Source of the DNA: Bacteroidota bacterium
Lineage (GTDB): Bacteria; Bacteroidota; Ignavibacteria; SZUA-365
DNA length: 43,965 nucleotides
NCBI GenBank assembly: GCA_014860565.1
Contig: JACZJN010000151.1
Coordinates: forward strand, 1 to 43,965
Reading direction: 5' to 3'
In this document: piece by piece, positions 33,780 through 35,443 of the stretch
Layout of the letters: the number at the start of each line of letters is the position of its first letter
Numbering within the stretch: the stretch's first letter is position 1
The notes under the pieces: model-generated
Databases searched by the model: none
What the model was told of the DNA's origin: nothing
The model's input: the letters and a program-made list of their open reading frames with translations, nothing else
Made by a program: the position numbers and the translations under genes

Positions 33780-34406
33780 ATGAAGAATTGGCTCCTGCGT
33801 ACACTTATCGAACTGGTTAACCGCACCATTACATTCTCGTCCGAGAACGAAGCGCCCGTACGCGCTCTGCTCGACGCAAGGCGGCCCTTTGTGCTGGTGT
33901 TCTGGCATGGGTCGATGACATACCCCTGGTGGCGAATGCGCAGCAATAACGCGGCGGCGCTGGTGAGCCAGAGTAAAGACGGTCAACTGCTCGCCGACCT
34001 GCTGCAGAGCTGGGGCTATTCTGTGTTGAGGGGTTCGAGCAGTCGAGGCAGCAAGGAAGCGATGACGGCCATGCGCGGTGCGGTGCGTGACGGACACGTA
34101 TTGTGCGTGACGCCTGATGGCCCTCGCGGCCCGTACCACGAAATGAAAATGGGGGCCGTGCGCGTCGCGCAAACAATGAACGTGCCGCTGGTGCTGGTCA
34201 GCGTCGGCTACCGGCGATACCGCCGGCTGCGCAGCTGGGACCGTTTCGAGGTGCCGTGGCCCTTCACACGCGCCCGTGTGCTGTATAGCGATCCGCTCAC
34301 CATCGCTCCCGAACTGCAGGGCGAGCCGCTCGACGAACGACGGCATGAGATTGAAAAAATGCTGAATGCGCAGTACCGGGAGGCTGTGCTGGAGGTTGCC
34401 CCCTGA
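33780..34406 (+). CDS. DUF374 lysophospholipid acyltransferase family protein
   Basis: 208 aa. Diagnostic blocks are VFWHGSMTYPWW (catalytic-type His43), SQSKDGQLLADLLQSWGYSVLRGSSSRGSKEAM and CVTPDGPRGPYHEMKMGAVRVAQTMNVPLV. DUF374 proteins belong to the acyltransferase superfamily and often lie next to lipid A genes, as here beside lpxK. A late acylation step of lipid A or a Kdo-related role is an inference. Its stop overlaps the probable start of lpxK, and its 3' end carries the GGAGG that serves lpxK. Confidence 0.85.
   Translation: MKNWLLRTLIELVNRTITFSSENEAPVRALLDARRPFVLVFWHGSMTYPWWRMRSNNAAALVSQSKDGQLLADLLQSWGYSVLRGSSSRGSKEAMTAMRGAVRDGHVLCVTPDGPRGPYHEMKMGAVRVAQTMNVPLVLVSVGYRRYRRLRSWDRFEVPWPFTRARVLYSDPLTIAPELQGEPLDERRHEIEKMLNAQYREAVLEVAP
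34391..34405 (+). promoter_or_regulatory. Strong ribosome binding site deciding a non-AUG lpxK start
   Basis: GGAGG at 34391-34395 is spaced 7 nt from CTG at 34403 and 10 nt from ATA at 34406. The first ATG, at 34436, has no such site (tattttttcggcgcc precedes it). Confidence 0.65.
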
Positions 34407-35443
34407 TACGCGCGCTCTCATATTTTTTCGGCGCCATGGTCGGACTGCGAAATCGCGCGTTTGATCATCGGCTGCTGCGCACAGAGCACGTCGACGTGCC
34501 TGTCATTTCCATTGGGAATATTTCTGTGGGAGGGACAGGGAAAACGCCTTTGGTGGAACATCTGGCCGCGCATCTGCTCGGCATCGGTCGGCGGCCGGCT
34601 GTTGTCACGCGTGGCTACCGGCGTGCGACGAAGGGGAATTTCATTGTCTCCGACGGACGCGGCCATGTGGCCTCGGCACGGCAGGGAGGCGACGAGGCGG
34701 TACAGATCGCACAAAAACTCCCCGGCCTCGTCGTCATCGCCGATGAAAAACGGATTCGCGGGTGCCGCCTCGCCGCTGAGCAGTTTTCCGCCGATATCAT
34801 TCTTCTCGACGACGCCTTCCAGCATCGGAACATGCATCGCGACGTCGATATCGTCGTCGTCGACGCGACGGAGAATCTCGATTCAAGGGAGATGTTGCCT
34901 GCCGGACGCCTCCGTGAGCCGCTTGCCAGTCTCCGACGTGCGGATGCAATCGTGCTCAGCAAATGCAGGCCGGCCACACCGGTCGCTGCAATGAAAAAGA
35001 CGCTTGTCACCTATTCCGACGCGCCCGTATTCGCCGCACGTTTTGTGCCCCGCCGTATACGGCGGCTCGGTGCAAAGGAGAGCCTCCCGCTCGAGACATT
35101 GCGAGGCCTGCCGCTCGGCGGCTTCTGCGGTATCGGGAGGCCAGAGGGTTTCAGGCGCACGCTCGATGAACTCCAGGCCAACATCGTCACGATGCGCGAT
35201 TATCCGGATCACCACTGGTACACTGCGGCTGATATCACAGAACTGCAGCGCCAGGGAGGGGACGCGGGCGCTCTCGGCTGGATCACAACGGAGAAGGATG
35301 CCGTGCGTCTTCGCGACGACAATGCCTGGAAGAGTCTCGGTGAGGTCTATTATCCCGAGATGGAGGTGGAGTTCGTCGGCGATTCGGTGGGATTGTTCAT
35401 TCTGCTGGCAAATGCCTCCGCCCGCGGCGCGCACGTGCGATAA
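34403..35443 (+). CDS. lpxK: Tetraacyldisaccharide 4'-kinase
   Basis: 346 aa if it starts at CTG 34403 (335 aa from ATG 34436). It phosphorylates the 4' position of the lipid A disaccharide at the inner membrane. The P-loop is ISVGGTGKTP; VVTRGYRR and LLDDAFQHRNMHRDVDIVVVDA match the family, and the C-terminal WITTEKDAVRL is typical. The upstream codons read LIRALSYFFGA, which aligns with the LPLSWLYG helix of E. coli LpxK, so the protein very probably begins before the ATG. The stop region overlaps the opposing zinc-finger gene by 94 nt. Its presence implies a classic lipid A outer membrane. Confidence 0.93.
   Translation: MIRALSYFFGAMVGLRNRAFDHRLLRTEHVDVPVISIGNISVGGTGKTPLVEHLAAHLLGIGRRPAVVTRGYRRATKGNFIVSDGRGHVASARQGGDEAVQIAQKLPGLVVIADEKRIRGCRLAAEQFSADIILLDDAFQHRNMHRDVDIVVVDATENLDSREMLPAGRLREPLASLRRADAIVLSKCRPATPVAAMKKTLVTYSDAPVFAARFVPRRIRRLGAKESLPLETLRGLPLGGFCGIGRPEGFRRTLDELQANIVTMRDYPDHHWYTAADITELQRQGGDAGALGWITTEKDAVRLRDDNAWKSLGEVYYPEMEVEFVGDSVGLFILLANASARGAHVR

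Follow-up and report, generated by a model that had tools for sequence, protein, structure and literature searches.

A probable CTG start codon for lpxK at an overlapping gene junction in a Bacteroidota draft genome

The translation of lpxK in this Bacteroidota genome appears to start at a non-canonical codon, most likely CTG 34403, with ATA 34406 as a weaker rival. This reading of the sequence follows from the absence of a canonical codon before the twelfth alignment column, from the columns at which related lpxK genes start, and from the fit of columns 5-11 to the family, and it supports the original prediction, which had named CTG or AUA as the start. The window is the whole stretch of DNA analysed (43,965 nucleotides), and columns were counted with CTG 34403 as column 1 and ATG 34436 as column 12. 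The lpxK frame contains no ATG, GTG or TTG between TGA 34352 and ATG 34436. The previously reported positions of the GGAGG, the CTG, the first ATG and the overlapping TGA were all confirmed in the sequence, and the parts of the junction are as follows.

33780 to 34406, + strand: upstream gene for a DUF374 family acyltransferase-like protein; open reading frame of 208 aa ending LEVAP, then TGA 34404-34406; Pfam DUF374, 1.2e-24
34391 to 34396, + strand: possible Shine-Dalgarno (SD) site GGAGGT (GGAGG at 34391-34395) within the end of the acyltransferase gene; read from the sequence, pairs with the 16S tail
34403 to 34405, + strand: proposed lpxK start codon CTG, in a CTGA overlap with the TGA; the column of GTG or ATG starts in genomes G001, G002, G005, G009 and G010
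34406 to 34408, + strand: rival start codon ATA, in frame, 10 nt after GGAGGT
34403 to 34435, + strand: N-terminal extension LIRALSYFFGA; columns 5-11 match the profile of 59 relatives
34436 to 34438, + strand: first canonical in-frame codon ATG, probably an internal methionine; no SD, and ATG at that column in 0 of 59 relatives
34403 to 35443, + strand: lpxK, 346 codons plus stop if started at CTG; Pfam LpxK 6.2e-88, and TIGR00682

The acyltransferase TGA lies on the lpxK CTG in a four-base stop-start overlap of the NTGA form (CTGA, 34403-34406), and a run of five C residues (34399-34403) sits directly at the junction. The RNA fold at the junction was not unusual (z 0.54), and an Rfam search of the window returned no match.

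Identity of the lpxK product

The product matched PF02606 with 295.5 bits (cut-off 27, E 6.2e-88) and TIGR00682 with 204.9 bits (cut-off 91.95); another NCBIfam model, NF001892, was matched with 134.3 bits, under its cut-off of 327. It was the single match in the 4.75 Mb draft genome (223 contigs, 97.8% complete), which also carries lpxB, and four distant loci from the scan of the contigs were left out of the comparison. The alignment with the solved Aquifex LpxK begins at query residue 5 (FSYLYEKIINFRN with LSYFFGAMVGLRN).

Start codons of lpxK in related genomes

Of 61 genomes searched, including the one that the window comes from, all but G054 gave an lpxK match, and the start region was read in each of the 60. 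The starts given for relatives are candidate codons, with columns taken from the tblastn offset and N-termini assumed to be gapless. On this basis, ATG, GTG or TTG occurs between the in-frame stop and column 12 in 58 of the 59 relatives, G026 being the exception. Within the genus the candidates lie at column 1 (G001 GTG, G002 ATG) or column 0 (G003 ATG), and within the family at column 1 (G005, G009 and G010, all ATG), column 0 (G007, GTG), column 4 (G006, G008 and G011, all ATG) or column 7 (G004, ATG). In the rest of the order, G012 has ATG at column -2 and GTG at column 1, and G013, G014 and G015 have GTG at column -7. Column 1 is thus the nearest canonical start in 5 of the 59 relatives, within the family, and the nearest start lies one codon upstream in two more; the others are spread over columns -17 to 7.

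The check proposed with the original prediction, whether relatives carry ATG or GTG in place of the CTG, came out in its favour (GTG in G001; ATG in G002, G005, G009 and G010; one codon upstream, ATG in G003 and GTG in G007). The opposite outcome, homologues that start at the column of ATG 34436, was not found, as none of the 59 has ATG there; column 12 holds GTG in G004 and G007 and TTG in G058, each of which has an earlier candidate.

The junction itself has counterparts. G006, an independent assembly from another genus, has the identical CTGA overlap (CTGATTCGCATG) with an ATG three codons further on, and G012 has GGAGG, TTAC and then ATGA, with ATG where the window has CTG. Together, these two junctions indicate that the overlap of the acyltransferase and lpxK genes recurs in the order. 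For three relatives (loci L008, L011 and L018), the frame picked for the upstream gene was not that of the acyltransferase. In the window, lpxK may once have had a canonical start whose first base was lost, or else an ATG at column 4 that has disappeared.

The segment LSYFFGA (columns 5-11) scored 10.6 bits against a profile of the 59 relatives, which takes in remote ones. In the six frames of the window, 6 of the 76,135 stop-free seven-residue stretches scored at least as high, the segment itself being among them; in 40 other stretches of the genome the figure was 168 of 1,046,427. Several true relatives scored below the window, the lowest at -1.9 (L101). It had been claimed that a start at the ATG would cut off conserved residues. 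For columns 5-11, which fit the family, the claim stands, but the first few codons do not seem strictly needed, since candidate starts lie at column 4 or 7 in several relatives. Initiation at ATG 34436 would drop the conserved block. Barring a sequence error or a working shorter enzyme, the data are thus most naturally read as a non-canonical start near columns 1-5.

One in-frame stop was seen inside the lpxK match of two draft genomes (TAG in G001, locus L006; TAA in G062, locus L108).

Ribosome site and CTG starts in the genome

GGAGGT lies 7 nt before the CTG and can pair over six bases, as the 16S tail of the same genome reads GGATCACCTCCTTTC. The use of such sites was surveyed in a 665,093-base sample made up of the window and 40 further stretches (L036-L075), with mechanical gene calls. 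Although the 16S has a normal anti-SD, a 5-base SD stood 4-10 nt before an early ATG in only 83 of the 501 predicted genes, and the excess over expectation was clearest at spacings of 3-7 nt, with smaller numbers at 8-10 nt. The GGAGG of the junction is formed by the codons CTG GAG GTT of a conserved Leu-Glu-Val at the end of the acyltransferase, and with the codon use of this genome, Leu-Glu before a G yields GGAGG about 19% of the time. With few genes here preceded by an SD and the motif lying within these codons, the ribosome site is weaker evidence than was first held: its spacing from the CTG, described as ideal, does fall among the enriched spacings of 4-8 nt, but the site carries little weight alone.

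In the 402 longer predicted genes, 5-base SD matches near gene starts were in clear excess before ATG (47 seen, 5.1 expected), and the counts were 5 against 4.3 for GTG, 3 against 4.6 for TTG and 1 against 4.7 for ATA. GTG and TTG codons near gene starts accordingly showed no SD excess. For CTG the count was 10 against 8.8, no clear enrichment, and broad use of CTG starts in the genome was discarded as an explanation on this result from the 665,093-base sample. GGAGG alone preceded CTG six times where 1.9 were expected, a small excess that counts in the window's own case. The GGAGG fits a CTG start but is no strong proof of it, being not clearly more than chance.

The overlap had been read as a compact coupling arrangement. 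It is present as described, but such overlaps also arise by chance: among predicted gene pairs, NTGA overlaps numbered 13 with CTG (the window's case included), 32 with ATG, 8 with TTG and 7 with GTG, and 5 of the 13 CTGA overlaps run straight into an ATG. Translations of three of the remaining seven CTGA overlaps gave no second convincing CTG-start gene. The first looks like a biotin carboxylase and has TTG where the start is expected, another has a Met-Met signal-like start, and the third, uracil-DNA-glycosylase-like by eye, gave no clear picture; a fourth overlap contained stops. A relaxed initiator tRNA likewise found no support, judged by the anticodon stem. The only exact GGGCTCATAACCC site in the genome belongs to an ordinary tRNA-Met with a CAT anticodon, and since its anticodon stem looks ordinary, no relaxed recognition is seen.

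Alternative starts and possible sequence error

A shorter but still active LpxK of 335 aa, started at ATG 34436, is very doubtful, as the residues ahead of this ATG are still conserved and none of the 59 relatives has ATG in its column. It would be the first canonical codon, the RN block, the VPVISIGN block and the P-loop would all be kept, and G004 also has a late start, at column 7. The ATG was said to have no ribosome site, and we found no SD match of at least 4 nt at a spacing of 3-11 nt before it, though most genes here lack one. The ATA at 34406 is in frame behind the same GGAGGT, and AUA is a possible weak initiator. Its spacing of 10 nt is outside the enriched 4-8 nt, though some ATG starts have this spacing (10 seen against 0.5 expected), and few relatives have their first possible start at column 2 (ATG in G033; none in the order), so that a start at ATA is extremely unlikely; CTG is preferred over it because of the start column of the relatives and a spacing that is common in the genome.

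The sequence could also be wrong, or the strain atypical, with a wrong base at 34403, or an insertion or deletion among the five C residues, hiding a canonical start or a different junction. The genome is a draft, the CTG column is ATG or GTG in other relatives, and a C run one base longer or shorter would fuse lpxK to a different frame upstream. We consider this unlikely nonetheless, given that G006 shares the CTGA overlap and that the acyltransferase end LEVAP resembles the ends of relatives (LEVS, LEVSPVAQA and LEVAPEDTP), which makes the frame up to the junction look right.

Non-canonical starts in infC and in another lpxK

The infC gene of this genome (L107, contig C16 of G000, just upstream of 118059) contains no canonical start codon ahead of the conserved RIN block. 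Within the order, infC was returned from 14 of 16 genomes (loci L138-L144, L146-L150 and L153, with L107), and all 14 have GGAGG, 4-5 nt and then ACG at the expected start (13 by script, G010 by reading). In twelve of them the stretch from the stop to the RIN block is free of ATG, GTG and TTG; of the other two, G003 has an ATG seven codons downstream of the ACG and G004 has one five codons upstream of it. Ten of the 14 have a further Thr as the second codon after the ACG; the third base of that codon varies (ACG, ACC, ACT or ACA), while the first ACG is invariant. A conserved ACG thus seems to serve as the infC start in the order, perhaps a more surprising observation than the CTG of lpxK. Across the whole set of 28 infC genes, 21 have no canonical candidate, and outside the order many have, by eye, ATC or ATT behind GGAG-like runs. 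An exact-phrase literature search of one library found no paper on an infC ACG start or a bacterial ACG initiation codon. The apparent non-canonical infC start of the lineage was counted in favour of CTG use in lpxK.

Another lpxK, that of G026 (L030), also lacks any ATG, GTG or TTG ahead of column 12. Its genus mates were read together with G070 (L108, L109 and L113): the only candidate is GTG at column 8 in G062 and TTG at column 5 in G070, which shares the family of G026, and G061 has both of these codons. The other eight genomes read from family f14 have an lpxK candidate start at column 4 or earlier. By eye, the upstream gene looks different in G026 and related genomes.

Discussion

We propose, with a probability of about 0.75, that translation of lpxK begins at CTG 34403 and uses initiator fMet-tRNA. 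The initiator would read the CTG after a 30S subunit binds at the CTGA junction, or after a just-terminated ribosome re-initiates there having translated the acyltransferase gene, with the GGAGGT probably aiding initiation. The weakness of the codon would keep LpxK synthesis low, tie it to translation of the upstream gene and make it sensitive to IF3. We infer the use of the CTG itself, the coupling, the low output and the IF3 sensitivity.

In the wider setting, the lpxK CTG is very probably a fresh example of a known phenomenon, that of rare non-canonical starts policed by IF3, and the original prediction very probably interpreted it rightly. Gene finders limited to ATG, GTG and TTG would trim 11 N-terminal residues off LpxK. 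It is a long shot that in this lineage several essential genes retain non-canonical starts (CTG in lpxK, a conserved ACG in infC), with the IF3 level setting the synthesis of the lipid A kinase; if true, this would make a small IF3 regulon linking outer-membrane building to translation capacity.

Comparison with known systems

Non-canonical starts have been characterised for few bacterial genes (PMC5472188), so the lpxK candidate, which belongs to the lipid A pathway and lies in a genome with an apparently odd infC start, gives a clean case for studying the use of weak starts and their possible control by IF3. CUG initiates poorly with the ordinary initiator tRNA (PMC11497404), and IF3 represses non-canonical starts (PMC5472188). 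A warning against assuming CTG use in lpxK comes from Caulobacter dnaA, in which a CUG preceded by an SD is toeprinted yet is not used in vivo (PMC8443254). At E. coli stop-start junctions, an SD promotes re-initiation and excess IF3 reduces it (PMC2268962). A literature search on the lpxK start codon returned no title naming lpxK.

By profile and by its solved relative (Aquifex aeolicus 4ehx), the product is a member of the LpxK family, tetraacyldisaccharide 4'-kinase (PF02606, TIGR00682), and its start codon is its sole unusual feature. Like lpxK, infC is an essential gene with a non-canonical start behind a possible SD, ATT in E. coli and ATC in Streptomyces (PMC5472188); in lpxK, however, the candidate codon is CTG, and the autoregulation by IF3 does not apply. 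The sigR gene of Streptomyces, with an IF3-repressed GTC start (PMC5472188), resembles lpxK in that annotation misses the start and low output is likely. The sigR start was proven by mutation and Western blots and is conserved across Streptomyces, whereas CTG is seen as the sole candidate lpxK start in one species. The closest geometry is that of the four-base overlaps of the ATGA type with re-initiation (PMC2268962), a form that G012 has together with GGAGG, and from which the lpxK junction differs in having C for A as its first base.
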